Positions 2,878 to 20,795 of a stretch of 39,196 nucleotides of DNA are shown in pieces (position 1 is the stretch's first letter; every line of letters starts with the position of its first letter). This DNA comes from Dehalococcoidia bacterium. GTDB lineage: Bacteria > Chloroflexota > Dehalococcoidia > GIF9 > AB-539-J10. The DNA is taken from the NCBI GenBank assembly GCA_030615625.1, contig JAUWYX010000002.1, positions 146,722-185,917 on the forward strand. Reading direction: 5' to 3'. The notes beneath the pieces were generated by a model. That model was not told where the DNA came from. It worked only from the letters and a program-made list of their open reading frames with translations, and did no database searches. The position numbers were made by a program, and so were the translations under genes.

Positions 2878-4095
2878 ATGGCAAAGAAAATCATTTCAGC
2901 TATTGACGTGGGCACAACTAAAGTAGCCACCATCGTGGCTAATGTCAAGGCGGAAGACGACATTGAAGTTTTAGGAGTGGGAGTCGTTCCCTGTCGTGGC
3001 CTACATAAAGGCATCGTTGTCAATATGGATGAAGCCAGACAGTCCATTGCCGCATCAGTGAAGGAAGCTCAAAGAATTAGCGGCATACGTATAGATTCTG
3101 CCTATGTTGGGGTTACCGGCAGGCACATAAGCAGCCTGAATAATCGGGGGGTGGTAGCTATCCCCCGAGACGATCGATTAGTGCGTACTCAGGACCTTAA
3201 ACGGGTGCTATCTGCGGCTCGTAATATCACCGTCGCTGAGGGAAAGAAGGTGCTCCACGCCATTCCTCGCTCTTACGCCCTAGATGGACAGGAGGGAGTG
3301 AGACAGCCAGTAGGCATGCATGGGTCCAGGTTAGATGTAGAAACCCATATCGTCACTGCTTCAGTAACTTCGATACAAAACTTGGCCAAATGCATCCGCG
3401 GTGTCGGCGTTGATGTTGATGACCTCATCCTCGAGCCTCTGGCTAGTGGAGAAGCAACATTGACTCCGGAGGAAAGAGAATCAGGTGTTATCATGGCTGA
3501 CATCGGGGGCGGTACCACAGATATAGCGGTATTTAAGAATGGCAGCATCTATCACACCGGTATCCTTCCAGTAGCCGGTTACCAGGTAACCAGCGACATC
3601 TCCATAGGCTTGGGCCTGCCTTTTAATATTGCGGAAAAGATGAAGAAGAGATATGGCAATGTCACACCTACTTTAGATATGGACCAAATGGTCCAAGTGG
3701 GTATCGAGAATGGTCATAGCGCCTCTTATAAAGACCTATGCAGTATTATCCGGGCTCGAATGGAGGAGTTGCTACAACTCATATTGCTGGAGATGCCCAC
3801 CAGCGATTATCAGACCCTGGCGCCTTGTGGTTTAGTGCTCACCGGTGGCACATCCAATCTGTCCGGGCTTGACGAGTTAGGGCAGTCACTGTTGCGAATT
3901 CCGGTGCGCAAAGGCCGGCCTTTGAGTATGGGCATCTATGGCATTTCCGATATCCTGCATGATCCGTCTTATGCTACCACCCTGGGACTGATCCTATGGC
4001 AGGTGCGAGGCAAAGAAGGGTCAACTTATAGAGAAAAAAGGGCTGGTACTTGGAGCAGCTTTATAAGTCTCGTTAGAAAGCTGTTTCGTGCCTAA
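2878..4095 (+). CDS. ftsA: Cell division protein FtsA
   Basis: This is an actin-like ATPase that tethers FtsZ filaments to the membrane. It has the phosphate-1 loop SAIDVGTTKVATIVA at the N terminus, a 1C-like segment in the first third, the phosphate-2 motif ADIGGGTTDIAVF near residue 210 and an adenosine motif LTGGTSNLSGL. The last residues (WSSFISLVRKLFRA) look like the amphipathic membrane-targeting helix. The ATG at 2878 follows AGGAGGT at 2867-2873; an in-frame GTG at 2872 would lie inside that ribosome site. It is followed by ftsZ after 19 bases. No ftsL, ftsQ, ftsI or ftsW lies nearby. Confidence 0.92.
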   Translation: MAKKIISAIDVGTTKVATIVANVKAEDDIEVLGVGVVPCRGLHKGIVVNMDEARQSIAASVKEAQRISGIRIDSAYVGVTGRHISSLNNRGVVAIPRDDRLVRTQDLKRVLSAARNITVAEGKKVLHAIPRSYALDGQEGVRQPVGMHGSRLDVETHIVTASVTSIQNLAKCIRGVGVDVDDLILEPLASGEATLTPEERESGVIMADIGGGTTDIAVFKNGSIYHTGILPVAGYQVTSDISIGLGLPFNIAEKMKKRYGNVTPTLDMDQMVQVGIENGHSASYKDLCSIIRARMEELLQLILLEMPTSDYQTLAPCGLVLTGGTSNLSGLDELGQSLLRIPVRKGRPLSMGIYGISDILHDPSYATTLGLILWQVRGKEGSTYREKRAGTWSSFISLVRKLFRA

Positions 4096-4114
4096 CTTGT
4101 GAAAGGAGGTTAGA

Positions 4115-5245
4115 ATGGCAAAACAAATTTATACTCCAACTCCAGCAAAAATCAAAGCCATTGGCATTGGCGGCGGCGGTTGCAATGCCATTACTCGCAT
4201 GGTCCGTGAGGAGATAAAGGGCGTTGACTTCATGGCCATGAATACCGATGGCCAGGCGCTGGCTCTGGCTGAAGCTCCTACCAGAATTCAACTGGGTGAG
4301 AAATTGACCAAGGGTTTGGGCGCCGGTGGCGACCATAAGCTTGGAACCAAAGCAGCCGAAGAAAGTCGCAGCATAATTGAAGACCTTGTTGAGGGTGCTG
4401 ATATGGTGTTTATTGCCGCTGGCATGGGCGGTGGCACAGGCACAGGTGGCATTCCTGTAGTGGCTGAGATAGCTAAGCAGAGTGGCGCTCTCACCATTGC
4501 AGTTGTGACCAAGCCCTTCACCTTCGAGGGGACGCATAGAGCCAAAGTATCCGAGGAAGGGCTGGTCACCCTCTCGGAAAAGGTTGATACACTTATCATC
4601 ATACCTAATGATCGCCTTCTTCAGCTCTGCGATGCCAAGACGAGTGTGGAGAATGCCTTTAGGCTAGCAGATGATGCTCTTCTGTTGGGAGTTCAGGCTA
4701 TCTCCGAAGTAGTTACCGTCCCGGGACTGATCAACTTGGACTTCGCCGATATTAAATCGGTAATGAAAGACGCGGGCCCAGCTTGGATGTCTGTGGGTAA
4801 AGCCAGCGGGCAAAGTCGCGCTGCTGAAGCGGCTAAGGCTGCTCTGGCTAGCCCCTTGCTCGACGTATCCGTAGACGGAACTACGGGGGTGCTGTTCAAT
4901 ATTACTGGTGGCCCAAGTCTCACTCTGTTTGAGTGTAATGAGGCTGCCCAGGTAATCAGCCAAGCAGTGGACCCCAACGCCAACATAGTCTTCGGGGTGG
5001 TGTTTGACCCCAAGATGGATAGCGAGGTTCGAATTACCGTTATCGCTACTGGCTTCGCTAAGCAACAAGGCAGGGGAATATACAGCGCCGAGGAGCTTCG
5101 TCGCCTGATAAGAGGCAGCAGCGATGCTCTTGACGTACCCTCTTTCTTACGCCGTGCTCAGCATTTTCCTGCCTCCCATCTGGAGAGTGGCTCCAAAACT
5201 CCCGCAACGGTTATTCCAGAGCCGACCAAAATATCTCGACAGTAA
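4115..5245 (+). CDS. ftsZ: Cell division GTPase FtsZ
   Basis: FtsZ is the tubulin-like GTPase that forms the division ring. The 376 residues contain GIGGGGCNAI near the N terminus, the tubulin signature GMGGGTGTGG and the T7 synergy loop (NLDFADIKSVMKDAG). A C-terminal peptide LDVPSFLRR (about 339-347) matches the family's FtsA-binding tail. The linker between the globular core and this peptide is very short (about 22 residues after ATGF), and about 29 residues follow it, so the peptide is not at the extreme C terminus. The start has AGGAGG just upstream. It is the last gene of the operon. Confidence 0.96.
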   Translation: MAKQIYTPTPAKIKAIGIGGGGCNAITRMVREEIKGVDFMAMNTDGQALALAEAPTRIQLGEKLTKGLGAGGDHKLGTKAAEESRSIIEDLVEGADMVFIAAGMGGGTGTGGIPVVAEIAKQSGALTIAVVTKPFTFEGTHRAKVSEEGLVTLSEKVDTLIIIPNDRLLQLCDAKTSVENAFRLADDALLLGVQAISEVVTVPGLINLDFADIKSVMKDAGPAWMSVGKASGQSRAAEAAKAALASPLLDVSVDGTTGVLFNITGGPSLTLFECNEAAQVISQAVDPNANIVFGVVFDPKMDSEVRITVIATGFAKQQGRGIYSAEELRRLIRGSSDALDVPSFLRRAQHFPASHLESGSKTPATVIPEPTKISRQ

Positions 5246-5267
5246 ACCTAAACCTCATTAGGGATTA

Positions 5268-5301
5268 GGGGAAAAGGGTAGCGCAAGCTACTCCTTTCCC
5301 C
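5268..5301 (+). terminator. Strong hairpin after ftsZ, possible terminator
   Basis: A 15-base arm (5268-5282) pairs with 5287-5301 across a GCAA tetraloop, with one mismatch and one G-U pair. GNRA loops stabilise such stems. No T tract follows directly, so it may act as a transcript-end stabiliser or a weak terminator between ftsZ and the pyr operon. Confidence 0.45.
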
Positions 5302-5410
5302 TACGATATTGTAACAAATTCCCTTTTTCAAAGGTCTAAGGAGGGCTTAAGGGCAATACTCCAGGATTTTCACCGCCCAACAGTTGACAGTTATTGGGTC
5401 CGGGCAAAAG

Positions 5411-5439
5411 TTGCATTATTTTTACAATTGTGGCATAAT
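5411..5439 (+). promoter_or_regulatory. Promoter of the pyr operon
   Basis: TTGCAT (5411-5416) and CATAAT (5434-5439) are 17 bases apart, with a TG extended -10 dinucleotide at 5431-5432. The predicted start near 5446 gives a leader of about 110 bases containing the PyrR-responsive structures. Confidence 0.65.
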
Positions 5440-5450
5440 GATTAATTAGA

Positions 5451-5557
5451 CCTTTAAATCAGTCCAGTGAGGCTGGTAAGGGGAAATATGCTTAAGCATA
5501 CCGCAATAGAAGCAATAGTTGAGACCTCTTGCCAGTTTGAAGGCAGGAGGTTTTTTA
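5451..5557 (+). promoter_or_regulatory. PyrR-binding attenuator leader of the pyr operon
   Basis: Three mutually exclusive structures can be read. (1) The PyrR-binding anti-antiterminator: AGTC (5461-5464) pairs with GGCT (5471-5474) around a CAGTGA loop, which fits the CNGNGA hexaloop known for PyrR sites; CCTT (5451-5454) pairs with AAGG (5478-5481) as the lower stem. (2) The antiterminator: 5473-5483 (CTGGTAAGGGG) can pair over 11 bases with 5525-5535 (CCTCTTGCCAG). (3) The terminator: CCTCTTGCC (5525-5533) pairs with GGCAGGAGG (5542-5550), followed by six T. The terminator stem also contains the pyrR ribosome site (AGGAGG 5545-5550). UMP-bound PyrR should favour structure 1 and hence termination. 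A small palindrome, TATGCTTAAGCATA, lies at 5487-5500. Confidence 0.88.
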
Positions 5558-6121
5558 ATGCCTGAAAAGGTTCTCCTGACCTCAAGGGAAGTAGGGCGGG
5601 CGTTAGCTCGCATTGCTCACGAGATTGTAGAAAAGAATAAGGGTGCGGAAGGTGTTGTGCTCGTAGGCATGCGAACTCGGGGAGTGCCTTTAGCCAAGCG
5701 CATAGCTGAAATAATCGAGGACTTCGAAGGAACCCCGATCCCCGTTGGTACTCTAGACATTGGCCTTTATCGCGATGACATTTCACCTTCAGAATTAAAG
5801 CCAGCGAACCAGAGCCACACTGATATACCCACTAGTATCGCCGATAGGCGAGTAATCCTGGTTGACGATGTTCTCTATACTGGACGAAGCATTCGTGCCG
5901 CTATGGATGCCCTGATGGACATGGGACGTCCGAGGTCTATTCAATTAGCTGTACTTATCGACCGTGGCCATCGAGAGCTTCCCATCCGGGCCGATTATGT
6001 CGGTAAAAATATACCAAGCTCCAAAGATGAGGAGATACAGGTTCAACTTGAAGAGATTGATGGTGTAGATGAGGTGGTAATCGGGAATCTGGCCAACAGG
6101 CAGCTAATTAGAGGAAATTGA
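5558..6121 (+). CDS. pyrR: PyrR, pyr operon RNA-binding attenuator / uracil phosphoribosyltransferase
   Basis: PyrR binds the pyr leader RNA when UMP is high and also has uracil phosphoribosyltransferase activity. The 187 residues show the PRPP-binding motif [20 protein letters not shown], the [15 protein letters not shown] segment and LYRDDI. The reading frame opens earlier (TTG at 5519), but the ATG at 5558 is right: AGGAGG ends 7 bases upstream and the protein then starts [16 protein letters not shown] at family length. It is the first gene of the pyr operon, directly behind its own RNA target. Confidence 0.95.
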
Positions 6122-6135
6122 AGGGGGGAGACGTC

Positions 6136-7539
6136 ATGAATCTAGCAAATAGAAATCTGGTGACCATAGACGATTTATCCAACGGGGAAATCGAAGCGCT
6201 GTTTTCCCTGGCAGACGAGATGGCGAACTCCCCAAATGAGCAGTCCGGACTATGCCAGGGGAAGATCATGGCCAGCTTGTTTTTTGAGCCAAGCACCAGA
6301 ACGAGGCTGTCTTTTGAAGCTGGGATGCTCAGGCTCGGGGGGCGTGTCATAAGTGCAGTGGACATAGGGGCAAGCTCCCTGGCCAAAGGCGAAAGCATTG
6401 CTGATATGGCGAAAGTGCTCGGGAGCTATGCCGATATAATTGTTATCAGACATCCGTGGGAAGGAGCAGCCAGGGTGGTTGCCGACTATGCTGGCGTCCC
6501 CGTGATAAATGCTGGTGACGGGAGCCATGAACATCCCACCCAAACCTTGTGCGACTTCTACACCATTAGAAAAGAACGGCAGACCGTTAAGGGACTCAGA
6601 ATTGCTCTGTGGGGAGACTTGAAACACGGGCGAACAGTGCATTCCCTGATCTATGCCTTAGCTAGGTTTGGTGCCACTATCCTTTTCTGCCCCGGCCCAG
6701 GGCTTGAGATGCCGGAGCATGTCCTAAGGAGACTAAGCACAGAATATAAAGGTGAGCTGCAAAGATGCAGGGATCTGAACCAAGAACCTGAAAGGAGGCT
6801 CTTCCCTATCGATGCCATATACATGACTCCAAGCAGCCCACATCAACTTGCCATGCTGCCTGACATAAGTATCCGAGTGGAACTGAAGGCGGGGGTTGAC
6901 GCCCTTTATGTCACCAGGCTTCAAAAGGAAAGGCAAGCGCCCACGGTGGAGGAACAGGAGTTGAAAAAAGGCTACCCGGTGGTAGATAAAAAACTCCTTA
7001 AAGGAAAGGAGTTTAAGAAAACACTTGTTATGCATCCGCTACCCCGTGTTGATGAGTTGACCCATGAGCTGGATGCTGACCCCAGGAGCATGTATTTCAA
7101 GCAGGCAGCTTACGGGATGCCCGTCAGAATGGCGCTCCTGGCCCTCTTATTGGGCGCCAAGGAAGTCACAATTCCTGAAGAAGAAGATTCCTTTGTCCGG
7201 AAGATAGATTATCCCGTTTATAAGCGAGATTCCGGGGTTAAGTGCCCTAATAGAAACTGTGTCTCAAACCAGGAAACAGAAGTAAGATACATAAAGCCTG
7301 AGTTCAAAATAGTAAGTCGCGAGCCTTTAACGTTGCGGTGTGTCTATTGCGACCATGAGCTTCATCCTCGATATGTCGCCAGTTCAGAGTGGCATCAACG
7401 TAAGTTGGAGAGCAAGAAATATCACAGCGCTGATAGCCATTTTGCTTGGAAGATTAACCCAGAAAATCTGATTATTTTTGCTTCGGAAAAGGAAGCTCAG
7501 GCTCAGCAATTTAAGCCCAGCAGCTATGCCAGACAATGA
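6136..7539 (+). CDS. pyrB: Aspartate carbamoyltransferase with fused PyrI-type zinc domain
   Basis: This enzyme catalyses carbamoyl phosphate plus aspartate to carbamoyl aspartate. Catalytic-chain motifs are intact: FEPSTRTR (50-57), SSLAKGES (80-87, Lys84 equivalent), EHPTQ (132-136) and MHPLPRVDE (299-307). At 467 residues it exceeds the usual 310. Two additions account for this: roughly 30 extra residues around 212-253, before the conserved DALYVTR, and about 120 C-terminal residues. The tail has CPNRNC (Cys370, Cys375) and CVYC (Cys402, Cys405), matching the four zinc ligands of the PyrI regulatory chain. The nucleotide-binding allosteric domain of PyrI is not present. The ATG at 6136 is preferred over TTG 6118. 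It overlaps pyrC by 4 bases. Confidence 0.93.
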   Translation: MNLANRNLVTIDDLSNGEIEALFSLADEMANSPNEQSGLCQGKIMASLFFEPSTRTRLSFEAGMLRLGGRVISAVDIGASSLAKGESIADMAKVLGSYADIIVIRHPWEGAARVVADYAGVPVINAGDGSHEHPTQTLCDFYTIRKERQTVKGLRIALWGDLKHGRTVHSLIYALARFGATILFCPGPGLEMPEHVLRRLSTEYKGELQRCRDLNQEPERRLFPIDAIYMTPSSPHQLAMLPDISIRVELKAGVDALYVTRLQKERQAPTVEEQELKKGYPVVDKKLLKGKEFKKTLVMHPLPRVDELTHELDADPRSMYFKQAAYGMPVRMALLALLLGAKEVTIPEEEDSFVRKIDYPVYKRDSGVKCPNRNCVSNQETEVRYIKPEFKIVSREPLTLRCVYCDHELHPRYVASSEWHQRKLESKKYHSADSHFAWKINPENLIIFASEKEAQAQQFKPSSYARQ

Positions 7540-8894
7540 ATAAGGAAGCTATCTTTCTGCTTATCCGTGGCGGCCATATAATTGACCCCAGCCAGAGCAT
7601 AGACCAGATTGGTGACCTGCTTATTGCTGAGGGCAAGATTTTGCAGGCCGGGGGCACTGTCCCTCTGAGCAAGGCGCAGAATTTAGATGCCACGGGACTA
7701 GTTGTCTGCCCCGGCTTTATAGACCTCCACTGTCACCTCCGGGAGCCAGGTTTTGAGGATAAGGAAACAATCGCTACGGGGACAAAAGCAGCCGCCATAG
7801 GTGGTTTTACAACTGTCTGTTGTATGGCAAATACGGAGCCTCCTTTAGATACTCCGGCTGCTGTAGATTGGGTGAAGCAAAAAGCAAGCAGGGATAGCTT
7901 GGTTGCCGTTCTTCCCATAGGCTGTATCACTAAAGGTAGAAAGGGCGAGGAATTAACCAATATGAGCGAACTGGCTGAAGCCGGGGTGCTTGCTTTTAGT
8001 GACGATGGCGACCCAGTGACAAGTTCGCAGCTTATGCGTCGTGCCATGGAGTATAGCCGAGACCTGGGCTTGCCAATCATTGACCATTGTGAGGATAAGA
8101 CGCTGAGTGACAATGGAATCATAAACGAAGGTCAGATGTCTGCTCAGTTGGGAATAAAAGGAATTCCCGCAGCCGCCGAAGAGGCTATGGTAGCCCGTGA
8201 CCTGATTCTGGCAAAGCGGACCAATGCCAGGCTTCACATTGCCCATGCGAGCACCAAAGGCTCTGTGGAGCTTATTCGCCATGCTAAGGAAGAAGGGATT
8301 TCGGTAACCGTCGAGGTCACACCCCACCACCTGACCTTAACCGAGGAAAGGATTATGGGTAAAGCTTCAAACGAACCCTTTGATACCAATGCCAAGGTGA
8401 ACCCACCCCTGCGCACTAAAGAGGATGTCCAAGCCTTAATTAAGGGACTCACAGGCGGGGTAATCGACGCTATCGCCACTGACCATGCACCACATACCCT
8501 GGCGGACAAAAATTGCGGGCTAGAGCTAGCTGCTTTTGGCATCAGTGGCTTTGAAACCGCTTTTGGCTGTCTCATGAGCTTGGTGCACCAAGGAGAAATA
8601 AGCCTTACTCGGCTTATTTCCAAGCTAACCTGCGAGCCAGCCAAAGTCATTGGTAGAAATGGTGAACTAGGCACCTTAAAGGCAGGCACTCCGGCTAATA
8701 TCACCATACTTGACCCTGACCGAGAATGGGTAGTAAACAGCAGCAGCTTCGCCTCTAAAGGCAAAAATACTCCTTACGATGGTTATAAGTTTAAGGGCAA
8801 GGTAATGGCGACCATAGTGAGCGGCAGGATAGTTTATATAGATGATTCCTTGTTATCCCCTGCCCTCTCCCTTGAAAGAAGGGGGCATAAGTGA
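7536..8894 (+). CDS. pyrC: Dihydroorotase
   Basis: This is a zinc amidohydrolase that cyclises carbamoyl aspartate to dihydroorotate. The 452 residues are of the class-I type: FIDLHCHLREPG (metal ligands His65 and His67), IDHCED, LHIAHAS, EVTPHHL and ATDHAPH carry the remaining ligands and the catalytic Asp. It starts in an ATGA overlap with pyrB, implying translational coupling. The last dozen residues (SPALSLERRGHK) are encoded by low-complexity, repeat-like DNA (8860-8894), so the ancestral C terminus was probably a little shorter. Confidence 0.95.
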   Translation: MNKEAIFLLIRGGHIIDPSQSIDQIGDLLIAEGKILQAGGTVPLSKAQNLDATGLVVCPGFIDLHCHLREPGFEDKETIATGTKAAAIGGFTTVCCMANTEPPLDTPAAVDWVKQKASRDSLVAVLPIGCITKGRKGEELTNMSELAEAGVLAFSDDGDPVTSSQLMRRAMEYSRDLGLPIIDHCEDKTLSDNGIINEGQMSAQLGIKGIPAAAEEAMVARDLILAKRTNARLHIAHASTKGSVELIRHAKEEGISVTVEVTPHHLTLTEERIMGKASNEPFDTNAKVNPPLRTKEDVQALIKGLTGGVIDAIATDHAPHTLADKNCGLELAAFGISGFETAFGCLMSLVHQGEISLTRLISKLTCEPAKVIGRNGELGTLKAGTPANITILDPDREWVVNSSSFASKGKNTPYDGYKFKGKVMATIVSGRIVYIDDSLLSPALSLERRGHK

Positions 8895-8924
8895 GGGTGA
8901 TTAGCAAAGCGAAGCAAACGGGTT

Positions 8925-8951
8925 CCCTAAAAATTCGCAGAATTTTTAGGG
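8925..8951 (+). promoter_or_regulatory. Perfect hairpin overlapping the carA ribosome site
   Basis: CCCTAAAAATT (8925-8935) and AATTTTTAGGG (8941-8951) form a perfect 11-base-pair stem with a 5-base loop. The 3' arm ends in AGGG, the only ribosome-site-like sequence ahead of the carA ATG at 8961. The stem could therefore limit carA translation or mark a processing site. Function is inferred from position only. Confidence 0.5.
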
Positions 8952-8960
8952 TGAAGTCTC

Positions 8961-10085
8961 ATGGCTAAGAAAGCGCTTTTAGTTCTCGAAGATGGGTCGG
9001 TCTACGAAGGCCATTCCTTTGGCGCCGAGACCACTACCTACGGTGAGGTTGTATTCGACACCAGCATGACCGGTTATCAGGAAATGCTTACCGACCCATC
9101 GTTTGCCGGTCAAATCTTAGTTGCTACGTATCCTTTGATTGGCAACTATGGCATCAACGAATCCGATTTTGAATCCAGACAAATTCAGGTGAGAGGCTTT
9201 GTTGTTCGGGAATACTGCTCCCAGCCCAGCCACTGGCAAAGCACCCGTACTTTGCACGAATTTCTGCTGTCCTATGGCATTCCTGGCATCAGCGACATAG
9301 ATACCCGTGCCTTAACTCGTCACTTGCGCTTGGAAGGAGCCATGATGGGAATTGTCACTTCGGAAATGACGGCTGAGGAGGCATTAAAAGAGCTAAAAAC
9401 CTTGCCCAGATATGATGTTACTGATTTCGTTCACCAGGTTAGCACCGAGAAAGCATATGAGTGGCAATCCAATGCGCCTGCCACTGTGACCCTGCCTTCT
9501 CTGTCATTGCGAGGAGCGTCAGCGACGAAGCAATCTCGTATCGCGGTTATCGACTATGGCTTGAAATACAACATACTGCGCATCTTGAGCCAGCTTGGCT
9601 GCCAGGTGACTGTGTTTCCTTGTCATGCCTCGGCTGAGGATATCCGGTCATTAAATCCCGGGGGCGTTGTCCTGTCGCCAGGTCCAGGCAATCCTGCTCT
9701 CGTTGATCCCATAGTGGATACGGTGAAAGGGCTTTTAGGTCGGAAACCAATTATGGGAATCAGCCTGGGGCATCTGCTTATAGGCAGAGCCCTGGGCGCT
9801 GAGACATTCAAGCTCAAGTTTGGGCATCGAGGCAGTTATCCTGTTCAAGATTTAGCCACTGAAAAAGTGCATATCACCGCCCAGAATCATGGCTATGCCA
9901 TAGATGCTGATACTTTGAAGCAGGGATTGGAGGTAAGCCACATAAACTTAAACGATGGCACGGTGGAGGGACTCCGCCACCGAGACTTGCCCATCCTATC
10001 CATTCAATACCACCCCGAAGCTTCCCCCGGCCCACTGGATAATATGTATCTATTTGAAAGATTTCTGGAGATGGTGAGGAGCTAG
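8961..10085 (+). CDS. carA: Carbamoyl phosphate synthase small subunit, glutaminase Cys replaced by Ser
   Basis: CarA normally hydrolyses glutamine and feeds ammonia to CarB. The N-terminal domain (LEDGSVYEGHSFG, MTGYQEMLTDPS, SDIDTRALTRHLR) and the C-terminal class-I amidotransferase fold (LSPGPGNP, QNHGYAID, YHPEASPGPLD) are complete over 374 residues. The nucleophile motif, normally GICLGHQ, reads GISLGHL here: Ser268 (codon AGC, 9762-9764) replaces the catalytic Cys and Leu272 the glutamine-binding Gln. His351 and Glu353 of the triad remain. Animal ammonia-dependent CPS1 carries the same Cys-to-Ser change. Residues 181-193, in the interdomain linker, come from a dispersed repeat. Confidence 0.93.
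   Translation: MAKKALLVLEDGSVYEGHSFGAETTTYGEVVFDTSMTGYQEMLTDPSFAGQILVATYPLIGNYGINESDFESRQIQVRGFVVREYCSQPSHWQSTRTLHEFLLSYGIPGISDIDTRALTRHLRLEGAMMGIVTSEMTAEEALKELKTLPRYDVTDFVHQVSTEKAYEWQSNAPATVTLPSLSLRGASATKQSRIAVIDYGLKYNILRILSQLGCQVTVFPCHASAEDIRSLNPGGVVLSPGPGNPALVDPIVDTVKGLLGRKPIMGISLGHLLIGRALGAETFKLKFGHRGSYPVQDLATEKVHITAQNHGYAIDADTLKQGLEVSHINLNDGTVEGLRHRDLPILSIQYHPEASPGPLDNMYLFERFLEMVRS
9502..9537 (+). repeat. Dispersed repeat copy inside carA
   Basis: This copy begins TGTCATTGCGAGGAGCG and ends GACGAAGCAATCTC. The same ends recur at 34220-34256, 38770-38808 and, in a shorter form, 14111-14139. Here it is translated in frame as SLRGASATKQS in the linker between the two CarA domains and introduces no stop codon. 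Confidence 0.85.
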
Positions 10086-14301: not shown

Positions 14302-14717
14302 CTGTAGTCACTAAAGACATCTCCCTTCAATCAAAAGGTAATTGCGACATTATCGATATAACCTCTCAGGTGGCAAAGAATGTAGAGGAATCTGGGGTTA
14401 ATAGTGGAATAGTCACTCTGTTTATAGTCGGTTCAACGGCCGGAATAACCACTATAGAGTATGAGCCAAATCTAGTTTCCGATTTTAAGAATATGTGGGA
14501 TAGAGTGATACCCCAGAATATTCCTTATGAGCATAATAAAACTTGGGGGGATGGGAATGGCCATTCCCATGTGCGCGCCTCCACGCTCGGAGCTTCACTA
14601 ATAATACCTTTTGTGAACAAGAGGTTAACTCTGGGCACCTGGCAGCAGATAGTTTTCGTAGATTTTGATAACCGCTCCAGGTCCAGAAAGATTACTATTC
14701 AGATATTAGGTGAGTAG
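14298..14717 (+). CDS. yjbQ: YjbQ/UPF0047 family protein
   Basis: This is a 139-residue protein of the YjbQ family. E. coli YjbQ has weak thiamin phosphate synthase activity, but the physiological role is unsettled. Family motifs are STAGITTIEYEP, HSHVRASTLGASLIIPF and LGTWQQIVFVDFD. The ATG at 14298 is chosen over 14280 because AGGAGG (14285-14290) precedes it and it makes an ATGA overlap with pyrK. It probably ends the pyr transcript. Its last 78 bases are duplicated at 17315-17392. Confidence 0.88.
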   Translation: MTVVTKDISLQSKGNCDIIDITSQVAKNVEESGVNSGIVTLFIVGSTAGITTIEYEPNLVSDFKNMWDRVIPQNIPYEHNKTWGDGNGHSHVRASTLGASLIIPFVNKRLTLGTWQQIVFVDFDNRSRSRKITIQILGE

Positions 14718-14718
14718 G

Positions 14719-14969
14719 CCACGTCGTATACACATTCGAGATAGATTCGTGCTAATATCCGTGACACGAAACTTCATACCTTTGAGAAATCTCGGCAATA
14801 AGTCCAGAGAATCTTTCTGCAGCTAGTCCCGTTATAAAAAGGTAGCTGGCACATCATGTTTAGCAAGAATTTCTAGCATTAATGGTAACCCTTTCTCTAC
14901 ACCCTGCCATGTGTTGAGAAAGGGTGGAGCGTCTTGTTCAACGTCAATGGTGAGAGCAACTTGAGGCAT
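14719..14969 (-). pseudogene. Polysaccharide deacetylase remnant
   Basis: On the minus strand an ATG at 14969 opens LTIDVEQDAPPFLNTW, then GVEKGLPLMLEILAKHDV and PATF, the N terminus of a NodB-type polysaccharide deacetylase. A frame change in the T run (around 14837-14841) is needed to continue as FITGLAAERFSGLIAEI, then YEVSCHGY. An in-frame TAG follows before HES. The homology stops at the yjbQ stop codon. So the gene is frameshifted, interrupted and cut off at its 3' end. Its start overlaps the glycosyltransferase gene, so it was the next gene of that operon. Confidence 0.8.
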
Positions 14970-16095
14970 TTTCTTGTAATACTTCTTCATAAACTCGGAG
15001 TGTCCGCTCGGCAGCCATTTCCCAGGTAAATCTGCTAGCGGTTTCTACGGCGTTTGCGCTAATCGTCTTTGCTAGCTCCCTATCTTGGATCAGACAAATT
15101 ATTGCCTTTGCCATAGCATTATCATCTCCTGGGGGATATAGGAGCGCATTGAAACCGTCTTGGAAAACTTCGGGAACTCCACCTGCGTTTGAGCATACTA
15201 CTGGCACACCCGCAGCTGAAGCTTCCAGCAGTGACAGTCCAAAGGATTCCATTTTAGAGGGTAAAACAAAAACATCAGCCGCTGCCATGAGCTGAGCGAC
15301 TTTTTCTTTCGGCAGTTTTCCCACCATGAATACGGAATTTATAATGTTCAAGCCCTTGATTTGGCGAGACAAATTATCCTCTTCCCGACCAGAGCCAGCG
15401 ATAACCAGCTTTGCATCTGGAACGACTTTCAAGACCCTGGCAAATGCTGATATGAGCAGATCTGGGCTTTTCCGCTTGATCAGACGCGACGCTGTCACTA
15501 CAAGGGGCTGGTCACCAATACCCAATTCCTCTCGCATTACAACAGCATCTACTTCCCCATTGAAGCACGATAGATCAACACCATTTTGAACAACGGTTAT
15601 TCTTTTTTCGGGAAAGCCCAACAAATGGGAGAAGCGCGCCGATGCCCGACTTACAGCTATTAGACGGTCAGCCTTGCTGGGTGCCAAGCCCATGGAACGC
15701 TGCAGGAATATTGAAAAAGGTGACTCAATCACAGAGTGGCAGGTTATGACACAAGGGATTCGGTGTCTGTGCACAAAACGAATCACCATTTGCGCCATAG
15801 AGGAATAAACATCCAACCCATGGACCACATCAAATTTCCCATCCAGGATATACTTATGACAGCGGCGAAAAAGAAGTAGCGAGGCGGCACGGTGGGGATT
15901 ATTTAGAACCAAGCCTTTCACCCGTTTGATTTTAACCCCAGCAATTTCTTCCTCTTCAGGTTGGCCAGGATGCGCATGGGTGATCACCACGGCTTCTATA
16001 CCTAACTTAACCAACTGAAGGCTTATCTCAAAAGCATAACGAGCAGCACCACCTATATCAGGGTAATACTCGTCGCCAACTAATGCTACACGCAT
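14944..16095 (-). CDS. GT4-family glycosyltransferase
   Basis: This 383-residue GT-B glycosyltransferase of the GT4 type is probably cytosolic and membrane-associated, transferring a sugar to a lipid or polysaccharide acceptor. The N-terminal domain has GDEYYPDIGGAARYAFEIS and the gap segment FDVVHGLDVYSS. The C-terminal domain has TVVQNGVDLSCF, VTASRLIKRKSPDLLI, and the E-x7-E region ESFGLSLLEASAAGVPVV followed by GGVPEVF. It lies 6 bases after the membrane-protein gene and ran into a deacetylase gene that is now broken. The acceptor cannot be told from sequence. Confidence 0.9.
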   Translation of the reverse strand: MRVALVGDEYYPDIGGAARYAFEISLQLVKLGIEAVVITHAHPGQPEEEEIAGVKIKRVKGLVLNNPHRAASLLLFRRCHKYILDGKFDVVHGLDVYSSMAQMVIRFVHRHRIPCVITCHSVIESPFSIFLQRSMGLAPSKADRLIAVSRASARFSHLLGFPEKRITVVQNGVDLSCFNGEVDAVVMREELGIGDQPLVVTASRLIKRKSPDLLISAFARVLKVVPDAKLVIAGSGREEDNLSRQIKGLNIINSVFMVGKLPKEKVAQLMAAADVFVLPSKMESFGLSLLEASAAGVPVVCSNAGGVPEVFQDGFNALLYPPGDDNAMAKAIICLIQDRELAKTISANAVETASRFTWEMAAERTLRVYEEVLQENASSCSHH

Positions 16096-16101
16096 CTTTG
16101 C

Positions 16102-17181
16102 TTAGTTTTGAACTTCAGGTTTTGCTGCCATTTTGACTCCCAGATAGGAGAAGACTCCAGCCCCTACTATAGTGCTCAGAACAAACGAGATCCCACGCTC
16201 GATCACTGTTGCTGCCATTGCCAGATTTAGAGGAACACCGAAAAGGGCAAAAATCGAAATTAATGACCCTTCAATAAGAACTAAGCCTCCTGGTAGAAAT
16301 GGAATAAGACCAACGATAGTCGGAAGTGAGGAGGCAACTAAAAGCATGGAAAATTTAGGATGATAGCCCAAGGCTAGGAATATAGTGTAAAGTCGAAAAA
16401 CATCAAGCGCTCCAATTGATAATGTCAAACTCCCTATCAACAATACCTTCTTCCATTTGTCTATCGTAGCATAGGTGCTTGAATAGAAAGTCTCAATTCC
16501 TTCTATTATTTCTTGAGTATTCCCGCGCTTTCTAAACCAACCGAGAACATGGTTTGTAATGCTGCTTATACCCCTGACTGCAATCCTTTTCTTGAAAAAG
16601 AGGCGGGGAATAAAGATTGTTCCGAGAGCGGCTAAAACCCAGGCTGCTATAAGAATCGAACCTAACTGGAGTGACCCTTTCCCAAATTGCAAAAACAAGC
16701 CCGCCATTAAAAACGAGACAACAACCAAGGGAGTAAGAGCGCGCTCACCAAATAAGGAAGCCATACCCGACGAATAACTCGTATTCTCCAGCCTATGCAT
16801 CATATAAACTCTTCCGAATGGGTCGCCACCAACACGTGCTCCAGGAGTAATATTATTAAGGAAAATGGCTGCGCAAAGTATCAGGTAACGAGTACCGAAG
16901 CTTATTCTACAGTTTATGAAAGAAAGTGCAGCTTGCCAGCGGGTGGCCCAAAGCCCCACGCTAAGAAAATATATGGCTATGGCTAATGCGATAAGTAAGC
17001 GGTTAGCACTCCTGACAGCTTCAAACATTTGATAAAAATTCTCATGTGCTAGAAGCCATCCAGCTACTGCCATGAGAATAATAGCGATAGCCACCAAGAA
17101 AACCGACTTACGCAGGTTTATCTTCGGCTTATATTCATTCACGCTGACACCAAATTTACCAGCAGCGCCAAATTTTGGCAA
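16102..17181 (-). CDS. YbhN/LPG-synthase-like integral membrane protein
   Basis: This 359-residue polytopic protein resembles the membrane domain of lysylphosphatidylglycerol synthases (UPF0104/YbhN/AglD group). Hydrophobic segments begin at about residue 28 and recur to the C terminus. The family-like stretch NNITPGARVGGDPFGRVYM sits about a third of the way along, and PFLPGGLVLIEGSL near the C terminus. Such genes often travel with GT4 glycosyltransferases and deacetylases. The start is uncertain: the reading frame opens with TTG at 17181, and a GTG at 17142 would also work; neither has a good ribosome site. Confidence 0.82.
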   Translation of the reverse strand: MPKFGAAGKFGVSVNEYKPKINLRKSVFLVAIAIILMAVAGWLLAHENFYQMFEAVRSANRLLIALAIAIYFLSVGLWATRWQAALSFINCRISFGTRYLILCAAIFLNNITPGARVGGDPFGRVYMMHRLENTSYSSGMASLFGERALTPLVVVSFLMAGLFLQFGKGSLQLGSILIAAWVLAALGTIFIPRLFFKKRIAVRGISSITNHVLGWFRKRGNTQEIIEGIETFYSSTYATIDKWKKVLLIGSLTLSIGALDVFRLYTIFLALGYHPKFSMLLVASSLPTIVGLIPFLPGGLVLIEGSLISIFALFGVPLNLAMAATVIERGISFVLSTIVGAGVFSYLGVKMAAKPEVQN

Positions 17182-17208
17182 CAGTCGGTTGAAAATATGA
17201 ACAACATA

Positions 17209-17314
17209 TTACTCTTTAGGTAGAGCCCAAAACAACGGCCAACGCTTCAGAGTTACTTTGTCGAAGAAGCCTAGAGAATACTCTGGTGTCACGATTAGTT
17301 TCTCAATTATTCGA
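17209..17314 (-). pseudogene. C-terminal remnant of an unidentified gene
   Basis: On the minus strand an open stretch reads RIIEKLIVTPEYSLGF, FDKVTLKRWP, LFWALPKE and then a stop at 17209-17211. It has no start and breaks off exactly where the duplicated yjbQ end begins. Its composition looks protein-like and it lies upstream of the membrane-protein gene on the same strand, so it is probably the 3' end of another gene of that cassette. The family was not recognised. Confidence 0.4.
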
Positions 17315-17392
17315 TGGCAGCAGATAGTTTTCGTAGATTTTGATAATCGTCCCAGATCCAGCAAGATTGCTATTCAGATATTGAGTGAGTAA
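17315..17392 (+). pseudogene. Duplicated 3' end of the yjbQ gene
   Basis: These 78 bases repeat the end of yjbQ (14640-14717) with about eight differences. They encode WQQIVFVDFDNRPR, then SSKIAIQILSE and a stop. No start or upstream part is present. Most differences are synonymous or conservative, so this looks like the end of a once-functional second copy. With 14640-14717 it forms direct repeats around the glycosyltransferase cassette. Confidence 0.8.
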
Positions 17393-17569
17393 GCAAAATT
17401 ATAGGATCAGATTTTCATTGTCATAAACTTAATAGGCAGAGGTGATGCGGCAACAATCTGATTGCACATTCTGAGGGATTATTAATTCTTCCCTTTTCGA
17501 TTGCCTGAATGTCTTGCTTTTTCCTTGCCTGAGTTGTCAGTATGAGTGAAAACTGCTAGATTTATGCCA

Positions 17570-18682
17570 ATGTCTTACCATCGAATAGTGGCTAAATTCG
17601 GCACCGGCCTTATTACCTCGGGCACTGACCATCTCGACTTGCAAGTTATGTCAAGTTTGGTGGAGCAGCTAGCCCGACTCCACGGCCAGGGGAAGGAGAT
17701 AATAATAATCTCTTCCGGAGCTATTGCCTCGGGAAGACAGAAGCTTAAAAAAGTTCCAGAACGCAAGAACACCCCTTTTAAACAAGTCCTGGCTTCGGTG
17801 GGGCAAAGCCACCTCATGTATACCTATGAACAACTTTTCAGCCAGTATGATATAACCGTAGCCCAGGCATTGCTCACGAAGGAAGACCTCTCGGACCGTA
17901 GTGGCTATCTTAATGCTCGTAATACCTTGCTGGCCCTTATCGAGCTTGGCATAATCTGCATTGTCAATGAGAATGACATTGTCGCCATCGATGAGATTGA
18001 AGGGCTCAAATTCGGGGATAACGATAATCTTTCCGCCATGGTGGCCAACCTGGTTGATGCTGACCTTTTAGTCATGCTCACCGATATCGGAGGCTTATAC
18101 ACTGCCAACCCACATTACAATCCTCAAGCTCAACTTATTCGCCGGGTGGATAAAATTGACGCCGAAATTGAACGCATGGCTAGTGATACCGCCAGTCGCC
18201 AGGGGATTGGCGGCATGGCAACCAAGATTGAAGCAGCCAGGCTAGCTACCTCTTCAGGGGTAAACGTAGTCATTGCCGATGGGCGAGAACCTGACATACT
18301 GGTGAGGATTAGCCAGGGAGAAGACATAGGCACTTTCTTTCCCACGCAGGTGAACAAGCTGGAGAGCAAAAAGAGGTGGATGCTCAGCGGGCTGGCTTCC
18401 AAAGGCAAGGTCACGGTGGACAAAGGCGCCGTCTTAGCCCTCAAGGAGCAAAATAAGAGCCTGCTCCCTGCGGGGGTTATGAAGGCGGGGGGGGAGTTTC
18501 AGCGCGGCGATATTGTGGATATCCTGGACGAGCAGGGCAAACGCATTGGCTATGGTATTTCCAACTATAGCTCTTCTGATTTAGCTATAATCGGAGGGAA
18601 ACATTCCGATGAAATCTTCAGCCTCCTCGGCTACGATTATGGCGACGAAGTGGTTCACAGAAATAATATGGTGATGGTGTGA
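17570..18682 (+). CDS. proB: Glutamate 5-kinase
   Basis: ProB phosphorylates glutamate, the first step of proline synthesis. The amino-acid-kinase domain shows IIIISSGAIASGRQKL, IVNENDIVAIDEI, FGDNDNLSAMVA and LTDIGGLYTANP. A complete PUA domain forms the C terminus (GKVTVDKGAVLALKE, LPAGVMKAGGEFQRGD). Starts at 17546 (GTG), 17564 and 17570 (both ATG) are in frame without a clear ribosome site. 17570 is chosen because MSYHRIVAKFGTG aligns with the family N terminus. The spacer 17393-17569 shows no gene. Confidence 0.92.
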   Translation: MSYHRIVAKFGTGLITSGTDHLDLQVMSSLVEQLARLHGQGKEIIIISSGAIASGRQKLKKVPERKNTPFKQVLASVGQSHLMYTYEQLFSQYDITVAQALLTKEDLSDRSGYLNARNTLLALIELGIICIVNENDIVAIDEIEGLKFGDNDNLSAMVANLVDADLLVMLTDIGGLYTANPHYNPQAQLIRRVDKIDAEIERMASDTASRQGIGGMATKIEAARLATSSGVNVVIADGREPDILVRISQGEDIGTFFPTQVNKLESKKRWMLSGLASKGKVTVDKGAVLALKEQNKSLLPAGVMKAGGEFQRGDIVDILDEQGKRIGYGISNYSSSDLAIIGGKHSDEIFSLLGYDYGDEVVHRNNMVMV

Positions 18683-18916
18683 GGAAACTGACAATGAGTA
18701 ACTAGTATATAAAAATTAGCTCCCGGTGGTAGCAGCCCACGCCTCTACAGACGCTGCCATCTTTATCAGATGACCAACCGTTTTCCAGGAGCTTTTCCTA
18801 CTGCTCCCAAATTTATAGTAAAATGTTATAGTTTTGTCAACATCTCATTGGCATTTCGAAGAAGGTGGAGTTAGACATGGGCGATAACTAAAACCATCAA
18901 TAGAAGAGCGTAAATT

Positions 18917-20216: not shown

Positions 20217-20795
20217 TTACGAGACCGAGCCGTGTATTCTCAAGAGTTCAGCCCGGGAAAGCCAAACCGCCTTAACTTTCACGGATTTACGAGAGGTGAT
20301 ATGCTTCTTAAACCAGGGGGTATGATGTGACTGCATTAGTGCGGCGATGTGGAGCCGGGCCAGCTTTATCCTCAGGGTGTTCGGCAGATCAATGACCTGG
20401 AATCCCAACCGTCTAGCGTGAGCATGAAAGGCAGTCCATCCATACACTGCAACGATGCTCCCATATTTTCCATCGGCTACTTCGGTGGCAAGGAGTTGCA
20501 ATCCATCTTTGAAGTAGTAGAAGAGTCCCCGGGGGAAGCCTCTTGTCCCTGACCCTGAGCTTGGCCGCAGTCTCTCAGCAATCCAAGCATCATTGAAATG
20601 GAGTTTGATGACAGGGTCGCCCGGCCCGATCTCACAACCATCCTCCAGCTTGATAGGACAGCCCCTGTGACGTCTCACCTCAATGCAGATGAGGCTGTTT
20701 TTTTCCAGAGGCTTGATATCAAGAACCATTGTGTGAACTTTGTTTATGATGGGCAACATAGCTCGTATAATAGTTCTTAATAAAGAAGAGGCCAT
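20217..20795 (-). CDS. YkoP-like protein
   Basis: This is a 192-residue protein with a basic, mildly hydrophobic N terminus. The region from about residue 34 to 75 (ICIEVRRHRGCPIKLEDG, IGPGDPVIKLHFND) resembles the YkoP-like family of Bacillus, whose function is unknown and whose relatives sit among glycosyltransferase and envelope genes. The ATG at 20795 has AGGGTG upstream. It lies about 100 bases downstream of the PaaK-like gene on the same strand. The family assignment rests on recall of this motif, so confidence is moderate. Confidence 0.55.
   Translation of the reverse strand: MASSLLRTIIRAMLPIINKVHTMVLDIKPLEKNSLICIEVRRHRGCPIKLEDGCEIGPGDPVIKLHFNDAWIAERLRPSSGSGTRGFPRGLFYYFKDGLQLLATEVADGKYGSIVAVYGWTAFHAHARRLGFQVIDLPNTLRIKLARLHIAALMQSHHTPWFKKHITSRKSVKVKAVWLSRAELLRIHGSVS

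Follow-up and report, generated by a model that had tools for sequence, protein, structure and literature searches.

A glycan gene block at the 3' end of yjbQ in a Dehalococcoidia genome and its relatives

We analyzed a 39,196-nt stretch of DNA (the window) on contig 4 of a Dehalococcoidia genome comprising 1.62 Mb in 19 contigs. Between the housekeeping genes yjbQ and proB, the window carries a decaying block of glycan genes bounded by two copies of the yjbQ 3' end (Table 1). Comparison with the sequences of relatives (numbered G001 onward) supports reading this block as an insertion at the 3' end of yjbQ. In three genomes of the same genus (G017, G011, and G016), only a short spacer separates yjbQ from proB; this is the uninterrupted junction that the initial annotation of the window had proposed looking for in relatives. 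That annotation saw no integrase, and searches with Pfam and PHROGs likewise identified no integrase-like gene in the block. As an example of gene insertion, the locus is clear but of a familiar, ordinary type.

Table 1. Features of the yjbQ-ykoP region, in window coordinates
Feature	Position	Strand	Evidence
yjbQ (UPF0047), intact, 145 aa	14280..14717	+	Pfam PF01894, E 2.2e-35; G017 protein 95% identical; left repeat copy is its final 78 nt
Left repeat copy, 3' end of working yjbQ	14640..14719	+	Identical to G010 across 80 nt
Left flank of insert, 28 nt	14718..14745		Common to G010; diverged form in G007 and G015
Remnant of NodB-like polysaccharide deacetylase, covering about 82 N-terminal residues and containing a 1-nt frameshift	14746..14990	-	Frameshift and truncation common to G010; intact in G005 and G019; Pfam PF01522 on intact G005 copy
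GT4 family glycosyltransferase, 383 aa	14944..16095	-	Pfam PF00534, E 1.6e-46
LPG_synthase_TM membrane protein, 359 aa as listed	16102..17181	-	Pfam PF03706, E 1.3e-43
Operon leader, no gene	17182..17314		Aligns to G005, G006, and G019 leaders with frame-breaking indels
Right repeat copy, a fragment left from the displaced native 3' end of yjbQ	17315..17394	+	73/78 to G017
Native yjbQ-proB spacer	17393..17545		145/153 identical to G017; adjoins yjbQ directly in G017 and G011
proB, glutamate 5-kinase, right neighbor	17546..18682	+	Pfam PF00696 and PUA
ykoP-domain gene, conserved far edge of variable interval	20217..20795	-	Pfam PF22790; adjoins yjbQ in G002

The direct repeat and the empty site

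The two repeat copies match over 80 nt at 89% identity, close to the figure of about 90% given in the initial annotation, and a blastn comparison of one copy to the other within our set of loci returned an E value of 7e-25. Their initial 32 nt contain no differences, and all nine differences (9/78 positions) fall within the next 46 nt of yjbQ, including the stop codon. The ends of the block had been described as duplicated yjbQ genes; the duplication is limited to the final 78 nt of yjbQ, and the right copy is a fragment rather than a second gene. From the spacing of the copies, the insertion measures 2,675 bp.

Allele identity does not tell which copy is native, given that the left copy matches G017 at 72/78 positions and the right copy at 73/78; in these alignments, it is the flanks that point to the native one. 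When the window flanks are joined (left through 14639, right from 17315), they align to the empty site of G017 with 780/826 positions identical and to that of G011 with 691/796. The spacer that follows the right copy matches G017, whereas the sequence 3' of the left copy aligns to G017 at merely 8 positions, the remainder being gaps. We therefore identify the right copy and spacer as the native yjbQ 3' end, which makes everything between this native tail and the left copy the insertion.

The order carB-pyrK-yjbQ is kept across the loci that we fetched from the genus. Thirteen genomes have a contig running past yjbQ: six carry the block (this genome, G005, G006, G010, G015, and G019), three have the bare yjbQ-proB junction (those named above), and four have other neighbors (G002, G003, G007, and G009). 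This count omits four genomes whose fetched contig ends too near yjbQ (G004, G013, G014, and G018) and three without a yjbQ match (G001, G008, and G012).

Genes, decay, and age of the block

As initially annotated, two minus-strand envelope genes lie between the repeats. Both the GT4 gene and the LPG_synthase_TM gene are intact, and their matches are far beyond the Pfam cutoffs; the start codon of the latter is probably located some 35 to 40 nt inside the listed open reading frame. A complete four-gene operon is found between yjbQ and proB in G005 and G019, consisting of genes for a NodS-like methyltransferase, a NodB-like deacetylase, the GT4 glycosyltransferase, and LPG_synthase_TM. The intact polysaccharide deacetylase of these two genomes has 246 residues. 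Pfam was run on the G005 copies of the methyltransferase and deacetylase, and the methyltransferase matches NodS as well. Given the gene families, the operon would produce a lipid-linked or exported glycan. The methyltransferase is absent from the block in this genome, in which the glycan is probably made without the deacetylation and methylation steps.

The genes at the ends of the block had been described as cut exactly at the repeats, with a deacetylase on the left and an unknown C terminus on the right. We found a different arrangement on both sides: the deacetylase stump, already frameshifted, is recognizable only as far as 14746, which is 28 nt past the yjbQ stop, and the right-hand stretch of 34 residues has no Pfam match and aligns to the noncoding leader upstream of the LPG gene. 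We rejected this stretch as a gene.

The deacetylase frameshift and truncation point are the same in G010, the sister of this genome on the rpoB and rplB loci. The deacetylase is mostly lost in G006 and nearly entirely lost in G015. At the right edge, the yjbQ remnant before proB is 80 nt long in this genome and 37 nt long in G005, and no remnant is present in G006 or G019; in G005, which has the intact operon, the remnant and the same kind of native spacer precede proB. The LPG leader is shorter in this genome than in G005, G006, and G019. The variable remnant length among carriers and the short leader in this genome point to probable trimming of the right edge, whose sharp boundary is then not a signature of recombination.

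Relatives that share the arrangement but have intact flanking genes and lack the repeat had been named in advance as evidence against the initial interpretation. G019 fits this description in part, with its intact four-gene operon extending from yjbQ to proB without a repeat. The G019 block therefore indicates that the repeat was left over from the event and is not required to keep the block in place.

We compared the divergence of the block with that of core genes. Identity between this genome and G010 is 91.1% for the cassette, 94.7% for the rpoB and rplB loci, and 90.5% for carB-pyrK-yjbQ. In the same order, the values are 91.5%, 93.5%, and 91.0% for G019; 85.1%, 86.5%, and 84.8% for G006; and 84.1 vs 86.6/83.5 for G015. 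Over the six carriers, cassette divergence approximately equals core-gene divergence, and because the one tracks the other, we consider the block old rather than recently foreign. The block had been proposed to be foreign or rearranged, and a recent foreign origin is not borne out by these identities. Composition is mildly AT rich (GC3 of 0.430 for GT4, 0.397 for the LPG gene, and 0.432 for yjbQ, compared to 0.511 with a standard deviation of 0.043 for the 29 other genes in the window); we rejected this as an argument for recent foreign origin, since it is weak, yjbQ being AT rich as well, and is contradicted by the divergence.

One pair departs from this pattern: G005 and G006 are 92.5% identical in the rpoB and rplB loci, 85.6% in the cassette, and 83.2% in the flank. 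The carB-pyrK-yjbQ flank rejects the pairing of G005 with G006 at an AU p value of 0.044, which is weak, and G005 is listed as 7% contaminated. Tree topologies differ between the flank and the rpoB and rplB loci, and species trees of 20 and 13 taxa disagree on the placement of G015 and G003. Carriers and empty genomes are interleaved on the tree, so several losses or transfers are needed. In two outgroup genomes, the LPG_synthase_TM-GT4 pair and the start of a deacetylase also occur away from yjbQ (locus L092 of G009, 7396-9681, and locus L093 of G004, 3568-5835).

Possible origin of the insertion

We favor, with moderate confidence, an insertion by recombination that was anchored in yjbQ and had an illegitimate second end. 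An ancestor of the clade would have taken up DNA in which the glycan operon lay beside a yjbQ 3' end, with homologous recombination inside yjbQ forming the left joint and an illegitimate joint forming the right. The resident yjbQ would have retained its 5' part and acquired the incoming 3' end, and the resident 3' end and native spacer would have been pushed beyond the block, to a position before proB. Afterwards, the block would have been inherited and lost from some relatives, the methyltransferase and most of the deacetylase would have been lost in the lineage of this genome and G010, and the right edge would have been trimmed differently in each lineage. An insertion with one homologous end fits the locus because a gene tail is replaced on one side and the native tail is moved to the other; in both this genome and G005, the native 3' end is found downstream of the insert, still joined to its native flank. 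We infer the arrival of the left 3' end with the insert, the route of uptake, the one-sided homology, and one insertion rather than several. In G006 and G019, which carry the block and lack a yjbQ remnant, either the remnant was deleted or the insertions differ. The sequence at 17215-17314 has no detectable match to the sequence upstream in the yjbQ of G017, and the right joint was possibly trimmed later.

The strongest rival is a duplication followed by deletion, which we regard as possible but distinctly less probable. A yjbQ segment would have been duplicated, either in tandem or through integration of a circle by a single crossover, and deletions would have left the last 80 nt of the second yjbQ. 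The series of remnants (80 nt, 37 nt, and none) looks as though a longer copy were being trimmed, and the short LPG leader in this genome suggests that its right junction is probably a deletion endpoint. However, none of the 20 genomes searched has a longer second copy of yjbQ on the same contig.

The 3' ends of tRNA genes serve as attachment sites for many islands, and a mobile element could have used the yjbQ 3' end in the same way and since lost its integrase. The geometry is what such an element would leave, with a rebuilt 3' end at one edge, a second copy of it at the other, and an identical 32-nt stretch at the boundary, but this stretch is generally well conserved in the yjbQ genes of relatives, and we consider the scenario doubtful. 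Besides the lack of an integrase among the block genes, a degenerate 35-base yjbQ pattern matched nothing in viral contigs, which also yielded no relative of the LPG protein. In a self-search, an extra 3' end was detected in 2 of 21 loci, several of which have little downstream sequence; we disregarded a third match, in G034, which is 18 nt long and inverted. The crossover point is not constant, as remnants start at offset 1 in this genome and 44 in G005 and are missing from G006 and G019, although later trimming could blur this, and the right junctions in these four genomes suggest scatter along yjbQ and the spacer. The window contains no tRNA genes, an Rfam search near the block gave one unrelated match only, and among titles and abstract openings we found no paper describing yjbQ as an integration site. 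With nothing recovered by the mobility gene, tRNA, Rfam, and viral-contig searches, we rejected an integrative element with a yjbQ attachment site.

In a single step, recombination between the two 80-nt copies would remove the operon and bring back an intact yjbQ-proB junction. We nevertheless think it improbable that the empty sites of G017, G016, and G011 are products of such scarless excision and that the block is a switchable surface-glycan module.

An artefact of assembly or binning is very improbable: all eight LPG-gene-carrying relatives named by record are Chloroflexota/Dehalococcoidia metagenome-assembled genomes (MAGs), and the right junction (17314/17315) is present solely in this genome, the G010 contig ending inside GT4, but G010 also has the left junction, G005, G006, and G019 carry the same block between yjbQ and proB, and the 9/78 differences between the copies make a collapsed repeat unlikely.

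The locus has parallels in three published systems. Insertion intervals that lack integrases and show recombination in the core genes beside them have been documented (Oliveira et al. 2017, PMC5635113). Our locus resembles these hotspots in its conserved flanks (carB-pyrK-yjbQ and ykoP), content that varies by species, and block without a mobility gene; it differs in that the comparison covers a few MAGs of separate species rather than strains and tests flank recombination weakly. At T6SS effector and Rhs loci, displaced 3' ends have been attributed to homology-facilitated illegitimate recombination (Kirchberger et al. 2017, PMC5361080). In both cases, the 3' end of a gene gives way to that of an arriving module, and the former end is orphaned downstream; the gene in our window, however, is a housekeeping gene with an undiversified 3' end, and the module carries a glycan operon. 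Variable segments bounded by short direct repeats are also in print (PMC2884548). These resemble our locus as segments present or absent between direct repeats that could also excise them, but we compared species rather than strains, and our repeat is the 3' end of a gene.

General knowledge of gene transfer is unchanged by this locus. It provides a well-documented case, from an uncultured lineage, of a block that entered beside a housekeeping gene with no visible integrase, with occupied, eroding, and empty states within one genus and before-and-after relatives that are unusually clear.

The variable interval between yjbQ and ykoP

In the outgroup G002, a ykoP-domain gene begins approximately 75 nt after yjbQ; in our window, the ykoP gene follows proA. 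The content of the yjbQ-ykoP interval differs by species between conserved flanks: nothing in G002, a 280-residue gene in G009, proB-proA in genomes such as G011, and the glycan operon with proB-proA in this genome and G005. No integrase or transposase was found among the genes searched, namely those of the block and several neighboring inserts. In G007, proB is preceded by Pro_CA_2, a putative carbonic anhydrase. The yjbQ-ykoP interval is a place to seek lineage-specific genes in Dehalococcoidia.

A search of 20 genomes of the genus for proB returned matches in 11, including a weak 25% hit in G010, and no match at an E value of ≤0.001 in nine (G001, G002, G004, G008, G009, G012, G013, G014, and G018). 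Since most of these nine do not belong to the window's clade, proBA could also be an addition to the interval.

A gene that we take, from its sequence, to be a PolX-type DNA polymerase immediately follows yjbQ in G003 (L032, 5200-7095) and the glycan block in G015 (L036, flipped, 4661-6388). In this genome, the PolX-type gene is approximately 70 kb away on the same contig (G000:C4:90686-92449), and we rejected it as the gene missing from the right end of the block.

The gap between proB and proA contains a match to the Rfam DUF3800-VII RNA (RF02967, 42.8 bits, window 18709-18797, minus strand). This family also matches L042 of G017 and L088 of G003 and has no match in the other five loci searched. 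In G005, proB and proA are separated by a gene for an N6/N4 DNA methylase whose C terminus gives an Mrr-like match (L033, 6637-8262).
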